From the NCBI GenBank assembly GCA_902555695.1, contig CACDTV010000006.1:1-50795 (forward strand): a stretch of DNA of 50,795 nucleotides. Direction: 5' to 3'. This DNA is from an uncultured Alphaproteobacteria bacterium (GTDB lineage: Bacteria; Pseudomonadota; Alphaproteobacteria; HIMB59). The notes beneath the pieces were generated by a model that saw only the letters and a program-made list of their open reading frames with translations, was not told where the DNA came from and made no database searches. A program made the position numbers and the translations under genes. Positions 31,184-33,619 of the stretch are shown one piece after another; positions within the stretch are counted from its first letter, which is position 1, and each line of letters starts with the position of its first letter.

Positions 31184-31212
31184 TTGTCAAAAAAAATAAT
31201 TTATTTTAATGT
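31184..31212 (+). promoter_or_regulatory. Predicted promoter of the 31.2-kb RNA / leader
   Basis: TTGTCA (31184-31189) and TAATGT (31207-31212) are separated by exactly 17 nt, which places a start site near 31219, just before the structured segment. The boxes are decent sigma70-type matches but lie in very AT-rich DNA. Confidence 0.4.
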
Positions 31213-31218
31213 GTAACA

Positions 31219-31326
31219 TGTAGAGGGTAGGAAACTTCCCAAAACAAAGAAAAGAGCCAAAGTAGTAGAGGCCTAGAGAAGGGAAACCGGAACTAAGTCG
31301 AGACAACCGAGGCTCTTTTCTGTTTT
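31219..31326 (+). ncRNA. Candidate structured RNA (small RNA or 5' leader)
   Basis: A stretch of unusually GC- and purine-rich DNA between AT-rich flanks that encodes no plausible protein. The first element is a hairpin at 31225-31240, GGGUAG-GAAA-CUUCCC, with a GNRA tetraloop and one U-U mismatch. The second is a perfect 11-bp pairing of AGAAAAGAGCC (31248-31258) with GGCTCTTTTCT (31311-31321). It closes a 52-nt internal part holding GG-GAAA-CC and further short pairings. A U-rich tract follows (TGTTTTAT), so the long stem may act as a terminator. It matches no RNA family I can recall. It could be an independent small RNA or an attenuating leader of the secreted-protein gene just downstream. 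The opposite strand would also give a stem followed by T-rich sequence. Confidence 0.45.
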
Positions 31327-31378
31327 ATCCCCAAATTTAATGATTGAATTTCTTACATTAAATAGTTTATCATTACAT

Positions 31379-31822
31379 GTGAAAAAAATTTTCAAATACA
31401 CTTTTATTTTTATTTTTGGTTTAAATTTAAACCTATTTTCTGGACCGTTCACAGATGAGTTTGCTAAGTGCATTGTAATGAAAACAACAACTCAAGAAAA
31501 AACTGATTTAGTAAGATGGATATATGTGACAATGTCATTTCACCCTCAACTGATGGATTTGTCTAATCTAACAGCTGATGATGTTGAAATGGTGAATATA
31601 AGAGTAGCTGACTACATGACCAATGTCTTTGCTTATAAGTGCAATGAAGAGTTAAATATGGCAATAGATTATGAGGGTGAAGAAAGTGTTTATTATGCAT
31701 TTGAACTCTTGGGTGAAATAGCAATGACAGAGTTAATGGAAGACCAAGGAGTTAGCGCAGCAAGTGAGTTATTTATTGACTATATAGATGTGTCAATTTT
31801 CGAACAAATACTAAACTATTAA
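31379..31822 (+). CDS. Hypothetical secreted protein
   Basis: I do not recognise the family. From the in-frame GTG at 31379 the product begins MKKIFKYTFIFIFGLNLNLFS, a textbook signal peptide, and is 147 aa. An ATG at 31340 would add 13 residues but spoil the signal's short basic start, so the GTG is preferred; neither has a clear Shine-Dalgarno. The mature part is acidic and helical with two cysteines (EFAKCIVMK and AYKCNEEL) that could form a disulfide. It lies directly behind the candidate RNA and just outside the tRNA-bounded islet. Confidence 0.6.
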   Translation: MKKIFKYTFIFIFGLNLNLFSGPFTDEFAKCIVMKTTTQEKTDLVRWIYVTMSFHPQLMDLSNLTADDVEMVNIRVADYMTNVFAYKCNEELNMAIDYEGEESVYYAFELLGEIAMTELMEDQGVSAASELFIDYIDVSIFEQILNY

Positions 31823-31856: not shown

Positions 31857-31908
31857 TGGTGCCGCCGAGAAGAATTGAACTTCCAACCCCACCATTACCA
31901 AGACTGTG
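31857..31908 (-). repeat. tRNA-Thr 3' remnant (far-end attachment repeat)
   Basis: A 52-bp copy of the 3' part of the tRNA-Thr gene (anticodon arm, variable loop, T arm, acceptor strand and CCA), in the same orientation as the intact gene at 33545-33619. Extended by three flanking bases, 51 of 55 positions agree, and the first 31 are identical. The 5' half of a tRNA is absent, so it is not a working gene. This is the typical scar left when an element integrates into a tRNA 3' end. Confidence 0.85.
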
Positions 31909-32022
31909 AAACCCTTGAATTTTAATATTATTCTTTAGTTTTTGTCATTTTTATTAACAAAAGGTTTCGCAATTTCTTATTATTTCACAATGATTTTTTA
32001 AAGCGTTACATTATGTGTAAAA

Positions 32023-32044
32023 AAAATTGACACAAAATTGACAC
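32023..32044 (+). repeat. Tandem 11-bp repeat, cluster 1 (candidate arm-type sites)
   Basis: Two perfect tandem copies of AAAATTGACAC, followed by ACAC, about 115 bp inside the left end of the islet. The same unit recurs at 32563-32584 and 33490-33500 and was not noticed elsewhere in the window. Short direct repeats near both ends of a tRNA-targeted element are what tyrosine-integrase arm-binding sites look like. Confidence 0.6.
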
Positions 32045-32086
32045 ACACAAACTTCATAAACATTTTAAAAAGTGTATATTTGTTCT

Positions 32087-32563
32087 ATGAGGTGGTTGCT
32101 TTTTATACTGTCTACATTTTATTTTAATATTTCTTTTGCACTTGTATGGGAAACTGAAAAAATAACGGACGATTGGGAGGAAACTACCAGAACTCTAATT
32201 TTTAGCGATACAGTTTCTCCTAATAAACCTCTAGATTTTCCATATTCTAATCCAACTGTATACATGTATTGGGATTGTGATGTAGGAGGATTTACTATGA
32301 GAAATACTGCAAATAATATTTTAGATACTGATACTGAAGACGGTTATAACTTAATAAAACATGATATTAAAATTGATGGTGAAAAAAAATCAATTGTTAG
32401 CTACCAAAGTTGGAATTCCGAATTTATTTCTTTAGATTGGAACAATAAATTTAAATTACAATCAGCGAATGAATTAATTATACGTCTTAATCATTACAGT
32501 GATGGTTATAGGCAATACAAATTCGACTTGACTAATTTTGACTCAATAAGTGGCTGTAAATAA
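32087..32563 (+). CDS. Secreted islet protein, possibly VasI/TagO-like beta domain
   Basis: 158-aa protein from the ATG at 32087. An in-frame GTG 15 nt earlier is less likely because MRWLLFILSTFYFNISFA already forms a good signal peptide. The mature part is beta-rich with two Cys (YWDCDVGG and SISGC at the end). The order of features - an initial W-E, a central VYMYWDC strand, R/K-x-D-I-K-I-D-G, SYQSWNS, then LIIRLNHYSDGYRQYKFDLTNF - recalls the VasI/TagO-type domain known from type VI secretion and phage proteins. This is a weak fold-level resemblance only. First gene inside the islet, 43 nt after repeat cluster 1. Confidence 0.55.
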   Translation: MRWLLFILSTFYFNISFALVWETEKITDDWEETTRTLIFSDTVSPNKPLDFPYSNPTVYMYWDCDVGGFTMRNTANNILDTDTEDGYNLIKHDIKIDGEKKSIVSYQSWNSEFISLDWNNKFKLQSANELIIRLNHYSDGYRQYKFDLTNFDSISGCK

Positions 32564-32584
32564 AAACTGACACAAAATTGACAC
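32563..32584 (+). repeat. Tandem 11-bp repeat, cluster 2
   Basis: AAAACTGACAC then AAAATTGACAC, followed by ACA, between the first and second islet genes. It has the same unit and the same 11-bp period as cluster 1, with one base changed. It starts at the stop codon region of the first gene and ends 6 nt before the ATG of the next, so it might mark an internal junction of two stacked insertions. Confidence 0.55.
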
Positions 32585-32590
32585 ACAAAA

Positions 32591-32818
32591 ATGGATAAAT
32601 ATACCCAAGCATTTAACTCAATGGGAGAGTCGGGAGTAGGCTGGGTAGATGCTATTTTCAAAATTTGTGTTTATATTTTAGTAGATCTCGCTGAAATTAT
32701 TGGCATATCCTATGAGGCAATTAATATTTGGATTTTTGTAATAATTCAACCTTTATTAATTATTTTATTCTTTGTTTTATGGAGAAGAGAGAAAAAGAAA
32801 AATAATATCAAATACTAA
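32591..32818 (+). CDS. Small islet membrane protein
   Basis: Unrecognised 75-aa protein with two hydrophobic stretches (about residues 20-38 and 45-66) and a basic tail RREKKKNNIKY that should stay in the cytosol. The N-terminal part MDKYTQAFNSMGESGVGW is amphipathic. The size and topology would suit a phage-type holin-like or small accessory protein, but nothing proves that. The start follows directly after repeat cluster 2, with no Shine-Dalgarno. Confidence 0.5.
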   Translation: MDKYTQAFNSMGESGVGWVDAIFKICVYILVDLAEIIGISYEAINIWIFVIIQPLLIILFFVLWRREKKKNNIKY

Positions 32819-32859
32819 TTTTATTTTTAGATAAACCCTAATAAGATGGTATTTAAAGT

Positions 32860-33156
32860 ATGATAAAAAAAACTTTTATTATAATCGTTTCAGTAACTTA
32901 TTTTGGTGCGTGCTCATCAACCCCAGAAGATTACATGCATAAGTCTGAATATGATTTATGTGTAGATTATTTATCTATGGCAGGAAATATTCACCAATCC
33001 AATAGATTAGAGGCAATAAAAAGGCTTGGATACGAATGTGATCAATATTACGAACAAGCTATGGCAAAAAAGAAAAGAGATGATGAATTTTATGAAAGTC
33101 TTAAAAATGTAATGGACTCAACTATAGATTGTGCGGTTATAGAGTGCTACGACTAA
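32860..33156 (+). CDS. Small islet lipoprotein
   Basis: 98-aa predicted lipoprotein: a signal MIKKTFIIIVSVTYFGAC with lipobox FGAC, lipidated C18, followed by SSTPEDY. The mature part is helical and charged (RLEAIKRLGYECDQYYEQAMAKKKRDDEFYESL) with four further Cys, two of them near the C-terminus (DCAVIEC). The segment from DLCVDYL to YECDQYY, with its Leu/Ile pattern, resembles small lipoproteins seen in phages and islands of other bacteria, but no family can be named. Confidence 0.6.
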   Translation: MIKKTFIIIVSVTYFGACSSTPEDYMHKSEYDLCVDYLSMAGNIHQSNRLEAIKRLGYECDQYYEQAMAKKKRDDEFYESLKNVMDSTIDCAVIECYD

Positions 33157-33163
33157 CAAATTT

Positions 33164-33457
33164 ATGATGAATTTTATGAAATGGCTGTATATTCTATTTT
33201 TTTTAATCCCTAGCTTATCCTTTAGTTTTTGCTATGAACCCTCTCCTCCCTGGAGCAAGCCATCAAAGCCCAGTGTTCCATGGTGTGTAAATGAATGGAA
33301 TAACACTCATACATGCAGTGATTGGGAAATTGAAAGCTATTATTCTGATATTAGAAATTACAATTATGAAATTGAAAGCTATATTAATGATTTACAAAAT
33401 TACCTTTATGATGCGGAAGATTACGTTCGTTGTGAGATTAATAGTTTAGATTATTAG
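33164..33457 (+). CDS. Small secreted Pro/Cys/Tyr-rich islet protein
   Basis: 97 aa with an N-terminal signal peptide (MKWLYILFFLIPSLSFSF). It is followed by a Pro-Ser-Lys-rich segment CYEPSPPWSKPSKPSVPWC flanked by cysteines, then CSDWEIESYYSDIRNYNYEI and a Tyr/Asn/Glu/Asp-rich helical tail with heptad-like ESY..DI..Y..EIESYI spacing, and a final Cys. Proteins of this look occur as hypothetical genes in marine phages and bacteria as far as I recall; no function is known. Last gene of the islet, 7 nt after the lipoprotein gene. Confidence 0.6.
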   Translation: MMNFMKWLYILFFLIPSLSFSFCYEPSPPWSKPSKPSVPWCVNEWNNTHTCSDWEIESYYSDIRNYNYEIESYINDLQNYLYDAEDYVRCEINSLDY

Positions 33458-33489
33458 ATAATGTTACTTACTGTAACCAGTTGTTACAA

Positions 33490-33500
33490 AAAATTGACAC
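33490..33500 (+). repeat. 11-bp repeat, cluster 3 (single copy)
   Basis: One AAAATTGACAC followed by ACA, 41 bp from the tRNA-side repeat of the islet. Together with cluster 1 it places the unit near both islet ends in the same orientation. Confidence 0.5.
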
Positions 33501-33544
33501 ACAAAAAATTTCTGAAGAAGTTAACTGTGAAAAAGTATTGAAAA

Positions 33545-33619
33545 TGGTGCCGCCGAGAAGAATTGAACTTCCGACCCCACCCTTACCAAGGGTGTGCTCT
33601 ACCACTGAGCTACGGCGGC
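33545..33619 (-). tRNA. tRNA-Thr (GGT)
   Basis: A complete 75-nt cloverleaf on the minus strand: acceptor GCCGCCG pairs with CGGCGGC, D arm GCTC...GAGC with AGTGGTA loop, anticodon stem CACCC/GGGTG with loop TTGGTAA giving anticodon GGT, T arm with GTTCAAT, and encoded CCA. A TATAAT-like -10 box lies at 33629-33634 on the minus strand, about 10 nt before the first base. Its 3' half is duplicated at 31857-31908 as the end of an integrated islet. Confidence 0.95.

Follow-up and report, generated by a model that had tools for sequence, protein, structure and literature searches.

In Oenococcus prophages 10-bp direct repeats are described as arm-type (P) sites within the attP of tyrosine integrases (PMC8074189), and five arm motifs are found in the 283-bp attP of ICEMlSymR7A (PMC11963761). 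Elements that have kept attL and attR and have lost their integration genes are denominated cis-mobilisable elements (CIMEs) and form accretions at one site (PMC5704250). For 'Ca. Methylopumilus' an additive flexible genomic island is known with repeated tRNA ends that comprise the last 20 bp of tRNA-Lys (PMC10872708). These publications already cover arm repeats, CIMEs and arrays of tRNA ends. The phosphate islands of HIMB59 bacteria are reported, in the accessible part of the source, to have no tRNA at their borders (PMC10734472), and a limited search, restricted to open-licence literature, revealed no publication on integrase-free cassettes bounded by arm sites for the HIMB59 group.

Here, we analyse a stretch of 50,795 nucleotides (the window; contig CACDTV010000006.1) from an uncultured alphaproteobacterium of this group. 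It contains an islet of 1.7 kb (approximately 31857-33544) that is inserted in the gene of tRNA-Thr(GGT) at the anticodon loop and carries three clusters of the 11-bp repeat AAAATTGACAC (Table 1). Judged from the comparison of sequences these clusters are quite probably arm-type sites of a tyrosine integrase on a small tRNA-Thr element, with cluster 1 in the left arm, cluster 3 in the right arm and cluster 2 as an internal fusion copy, and the islet would then be an integrase-less, CIME-like cassette. Such arm-type sites had been suggested in an earlier note on this DNA, and the suggestion is well supported, indirectly, by the enrichment of tandem repeats and by a 55-bp spacing that is found in two repeat families.

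Table 1. Features of the islet and its borders, with positions in the window.
Feature	Position	Strand	Description
Left att copy	31857..31908	+	Displaced 3' part of tRNA-Thr, tRNA positions 1-52 in + strand reading; found by blastn and as direct repeat D1
Non-coding left end of element	31909..32022	.	78-84% alike in G051 and G041, where the cargo differs
Putative arm-site cluster 1	32023..32044	+	Two exact tandem AAAATTGACAC units, 32023-32033 and 32034-32044; from sequence and TRF
Cargo ORF, 163 aa	32072..32563	+	GTG start, or ATG at 32087; looks exported; no Pfam or PHROG match
Putative arm-site cluster 2	32563..32584	+	Near-exact unit AAAACTGACAC (32563-32573, one mismatch) and exact unit (32574-32584)
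Cargo ORF, 75 aa	32591..32818	+	Small membrane protein
Cargo ORF, 98 aa	32860..33156	+	Looks like a lipoprotein
Cargo ORF, 97 aa	33164..33457	+	Looks exported
Putative arm-site cluster 3	33490..33500	+	Single exact AAAATTGACAC unit; start 55 bp left of the tRNA
Intact tRNA-Thr(GGT)	33545..33619	-	3' part and 3' flank derived from the element

The window was compared with the 52 genomes of its genus, and 40 stretches around tRNA-Thr or the 160-aa gene left of the islet were taken from 40 relatives and their tRNA pieces mapped by blastn. Four genomes of the genus (G019, G048, G007 and G024) show the empty site, in which the 160-aa gene is directly followed by a single tRNA. The 7-nt anticodon loop TTACCAA, with the anticodon stem on either side, is located at 33583-33589 of the intact tRNA and again at 31895-31901 of the left att copy, and we infer that it is the crossover point. 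As the left att copy has diverged from tRNA-Thr (92% identity), this particular copy of the islet may be dead or immobile. The relative G051 possesses a version of 234 bp, measured from the start of the partial to the start of the full tRNA, and between these tRNA copies only the conserved left end, an 11-bp pair and the right end are found, without any ORF of at least 60 aa. Its left tRNA copy keeps the chromosomal 3' flank of the empty sites and its right copy has an element-derived flank. The left end of G051 is 84% alike to that of G041 and 78% alike to that of the window (BLAST), and the cargo behind this common end amounts to nothing in G051, one ORF of 449 aa in G041 and four small ORFs in the window. 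A BLAST search with the G051 end in 389 genomes gave convincing copies only in G051, G041 and the window, the other matches being short and AT-rich. Left of the 160-aa gene there is, in addition, an intergenic element (31211-31330) that is 80-100% identical in 27 other loci and has a predicted fold of -33.7 kcal/mol with one consensus structure; it has no significant match in Rfam and is a candidate structured RNA.

The repeats themselves are real. All five units claimed in the earlier note are present in one orientation on the + strand, and its statement that they are confined to the islet is correct for these five; one exact copy on the minus strand (31790-31800) lies outside, within the 160-aa gene. 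The latter is also kept in genomes with the empty site and is therefore a coincidence within coding sequence. In the whole assembly of this organism (1.08 Mb in 37 contigs, 71% complete) AAAATTGACAC occurs exactly six times, namely four times in the islet, once in the adjoining coding gene and once on another contig, compared with one occurrence of the reversed pattern; the 11-mer is not common across the chromosome, and only a common repeat would, according to the earlier note, have spoken against its suggestion in this respect. The expected number in the 1.7-kb islet is about 0.003 against four found, a post hoc figure because the motif was picked for repeating. That the clusters arose by chance in AT-rich DNA would fit the weak counts with one mismatch allowed (7 in the window against a shuffle mean of 3.15, with 5 of 100 shuffles reaching 7, which is unremarkable) and the fact that TRF lists 41 rows for the AT-rich window, of which the two tandem pairs represent 2. 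Against chance stand the whole-genome count and the clustering, the conservation in G051 and G041 and the fixed geometry, and in view of the comparison with relatives such an origin appears very unlikely. The case for the clusters is based on clustering, exact 11-bp phasing and the comparison of relatives, not on the raw count.

The tRNA-Thr locus is a hotspot. As in an additive island, tRNA ends separate 25 modules in 15 loci, 13 of them (the window's included) to the left and 12 to the right of the intact tRNA. This census was picked by hand from the blastn mapping and leaves out L092 (a tRNA fragment of 26 bp), L090 (a second copy with 85% identity), L083 and L098-L100 (tRNA in other orientation or incomplete) as well as loci with an intact tRNA only. 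A second tandem repeat, GTGTACCCA, in which the units are spaced by 11-12 bp, is present in the elements of G001, G040, G050 and G031 and at the right end in G027; G001, G040 and G031 have it as pairs at both ends in the same orientation. In the islet, too, short direct repeats are located near the att core in both end regions in the same orientation (clusters 1 and 3). In six loci that belong to two families the tRNA-proximal repeat starts at a distance of exactly 55 bp from the tRNA, i.e. in the window and G051 with AAAATTGACAC and in L069, L071, L075 and L088 with GTGTACCCA. On the left side the distance is 166 bp from the start of the att copy to cluster 1 in the window and 166-168 bp in three loci. 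That the 55-bp geometry is shared by repeats of unrelated sequence argues most strongly for integrase arm sites. Some points do not favour this reading: cluster 3 consists of one unit, in contrast to the paired repeats at either end in the GTGTACCCA family, cluster 2 is without known counterpart in the typical anatomy of attP, and the sites consist of short, AT-rich DNA. Modules located on the opposite side of tRNA-Thr (L068, L073, L074, L077, L078, L086 and L089) supply the tRNA with a new 5' half in place of a 3' half, and their end repeats tend to a period of 10 bp, not 11-12 bp.

Tandem periods were scored in the 190-bp ends of the 25 modules. With a period of 10-12 bp a score of at least 9 is reached in 13 of 49 module ends compared with 1 of 494 interior windows, and for the control periods the corresponding numbers of ends are 0/49 (7-9 and 13-15 bp) and 1/49 (16-18 bp). 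At a score of 7.2 the period of 10-12 bp is found in 23/49 ends versus 24/494 interior windows, and in 5 of the 25 modules neither end reaches 6.6. Exact tandems of period 11 in 54 loci are located within 200 bp of a tRNA in 11 cases and elsewhere in 6, which corresponds to densities of 0.395 and 0.012 per kb, respectively, a statistic in which kin are counted separately (L114-L117 represent one integrase family, and L069, L071, L075 and L088 share one repeat). In the same 54 loci the other tandem periods, with the exception of 12, are flat near tRNAs. Fourteen other integrase loci (L104-L117) were inspected; in eight an exact period-11 tandem lies beside a tRNA (Gly, Ala, Met or Arg), comprising about four independent integrase types, and in the remaining six no such tandem was found within 200 bp of a tRNA. 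The enrichment test proposed in the earlier note is thus positive for 11-bp tandems beside tRNA-bounded and integrase-containing elements.

The clusters might also be regarded as a recombination repeat, homologous or illegitimate, that was spread by duplication and allowed the swapping of cargo without any role in site-specific integration. Clusters 1 and 2 have 33 bp in common that are 91% alike, cluster 2 coincides with a boundary of homology, and G051 resembles a product in which cluster 1 was joined to cluster 3 with deletion of the cargo. This explanation leaves the exact 55-bp spacing and the location at module ends unaccounted for, as well as the unrelated tandems of 10-12 bp period in other modules and at other tRNAs, and as the sole function it appears unlikely; a role in recombination may exist in addition to that as arm sites. 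Under the arm-site reading cluster 2 could be the joint of two cargo units that were brought together by recombination between arm repeats. Homology with the 75-aa gene as present in G010 begins 4 bp past cluster 2, at position 32588, as expected of two cargo units fused at a repeat. G051 could represent the reverse event, a deletion between clusters 1 and 3. Stacked insertions, at which the middle cluster hinted according to the earlier note, are only half supported, namely by the homology boundary and in the form of such a fusion. A second tRNA insertion at cluster 2 is ruled out, because neither blastn with the tRNA nor the search for direct repeats revealed a tRNA or att copy beside it.

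HMM scans of the cargo genes against Pfam and PHROG yielded only sub-threshold matches. The 75-aa protein has relatives at this tRNA locus in G010 and in G050, and also on four viral contigs of IMG/VR, which is at most a hint at traffic with phages; among annotated phages no match was found. The 97-aa protein has relatives with 68-80% identity in G002, G005, G034 and G040 near the same locus and matched no contig of IMG/VR. In L073, L077, L079 and L083 a near-constant signal-peptide start, MKTLLALLLLIPSL..., adjoins the arm repeats at module ends; sometimes it is present as a stub that ends at a stop codon, which would fit an exchange of the mature parts downstream of it. As clusters 1 and 2 are located upstream of ORFs and TTGACA is the consensus of the -35 box, they could be considered as promoters or, with the 11-bp pair as regulator site before the cargo genes, as operators. 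Between 31800 and 33700 there are 11 promoter-like sites, a count that equals the shuffle mean of 11.0, and none of them uses the TTGACA hexamers of AAAATTGACAC, which have no -10 hexamer 16-18 bp downstream. The possibility raised in the earlier note that the repeats are found only as -35 boxes is thereby removed. Moreover, the conserved spacing is that to the tRNA, cluster 3 lies behind the last ORF and faces no gene, and the pair in G051 is kept without any ORF of at least 60 aa. A regulatory site is quite unlikely and was rejected, since no gene follows cluster 3 or the pair in G051.

The ORFs of the islet contain no integrase or other integration gene according to Pfam and PHROG, as seen in a genome that is 71% complete. 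Matches to PF00589 occur in 52/52 genomes of the genus and are, as read here, mostly Xer-like; this applies also to the two matches in the window's genome, both on other contigs. Only 1 of the 25 tRNA-Thr modules, that of G001, contains an integrase. In G040 and G027 short N-terminal integrase stubs are located just inside the right repeat (E values of 0.005 and 0.004), and this may be the way in which such elements lose their integrase gene; in the islet no stub was detected. Among nine integrases of the genus that were scanned four match Arm-DNA-bind_3 (three of them above the cut-off) and the others match no arm-domain model. An integrase with AAAATTGACAC arms was not found in the PF00589 search of the 52 genomes. 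Scanning IMG/VR for the tandem repeat gave one contig, with no tRNA in the DNA fetched, and scanning it with the 3' half of tRNA-Thr, i.e. the att sequence, gave no match. A scan of contigs for the tandem revealed 15 stretches where about 7 are expected by chance (an estimate for even composition), thus a number near chance; one of them is G051 itself (L130), and among the other 14 only a stretch from Saccharibacter has a tRNA in the DNA fetched. There (L129, 6928-7134) the pair AATTGACACGAAATTGACAC is found 113 bp downstream of tRNA-Val next to a holin-like ORF, possibly as the end of a prophage with similar arms, and none of the four integrase genes of this genome is tied to the pair.

With att cores and putative arms kept and the integrase gene absent the islet can be classified as a non-autonomous cassette, which was probably moved in trans or is decaying. 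In the mechanism that we propose the integrase of a phage or of some other element would bind the arms and the core and would excise or insert the cassette at the anticodon loop, whereby the element would restore the tRNA with its own 3' part. Excision and re-insertion could proceed only with an integrase supplied in trans; otherwise the islet would be a relic.

A sister family is found at tRNA-Gln, where elements of the same anatomy share the repeat TTGnCACTCTCTTGnCAC in seven loci. Its distance is 33-34 bp from one of the tRNA copies in five loci and 77-78 bp from the other copy, likewise in five loci, and these spacings hold wherever the repeat of the respective end was found. The cargos are unrelated and include, with names given from reading of the sequence, a helicase-like protein of 1323 aa, a small lipoprotein, small ORFs and a sulfotransferase-like protein. 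All three tRNA-Gln genomes tested (G055, G061 and G076) have matches to PF00589 on other contigs. In G055 a second tRNA-Gln element (L161, 10014-11748) with the repeat GGTCACACTAT is stacked beside the TTGACACTCTC element. As a tentative and rather speculative generalisation, tRNA-Thr and tRNA-Gln might serve in the HIMB59 order as docks for integrase-free cassettes, each family being defined only by its own 10-12 bp arm-repeat pair and its att ends. Cargo would be swapped freely, also by fusion at internal repeats, and the cassettes would be mobilised in trans by integrases that passing phages or elements bring along, as a tRNA-anchored counterpart of integron cassettes without integrase. In streamlined ocean bacteria recognisable mobile elements are few, but there is nevertheless turnover of accessory genes. 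If tiny islets retain only att cores and arm sites and depend on a borrowed integrase, searches for integrase genes would miss much of this turnover, and a 10-12 bp tandem beside a tRNA could be used as a sequence tag to find both the cassettes and matching helpers.

Among known systems, tycheposons and PICMI-type islands are also marine and represent small or tRNA-bounded integrative elements (PMC10872708, PMC11389934, PMC10803314), but tycheposons, as characterised in the accessible parts of these sources, comprise 4-200 kb with a tyrosine recombinase and the islet has 1.7 kb and none. The island of 'Ca. Methylopumilus' (PMC10872708) resembles the tRNA-Thr locus in its small cargo units that are separated by tRNA-end repeats in a streamlined aquatic bacterium; it differs in that the shared tRNA piece reaches the anticodon loop here, and the accessible part of that publication describes no arm-site repeats. 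With the arm-type attP sites mentioned at the beginning (PMC8074189, PMC11963761) the islet shares short direct repeats, each roughly a helical turn in length, in putative arms on both sides of a tRNA-derived core, and the use of an own repeat for each integrase type. In contrast with those systems, as far as their published descriptions were accessible, it lacks an integrase gene and has a third, internal cluster. Like a CIME, the islet keeps attL and attR in the form of the partial and full tRNA copies, lacks integration genes and belongs to an accretion at one site. Compared with the CIMEs outlined in the accessible part of PMC5704250, the modules are very small (0.2-6 kb) and show no conjugation genes in the ORFs read, the arm sites of their ends are traceable, and there are several end families with interchangeable cargo.
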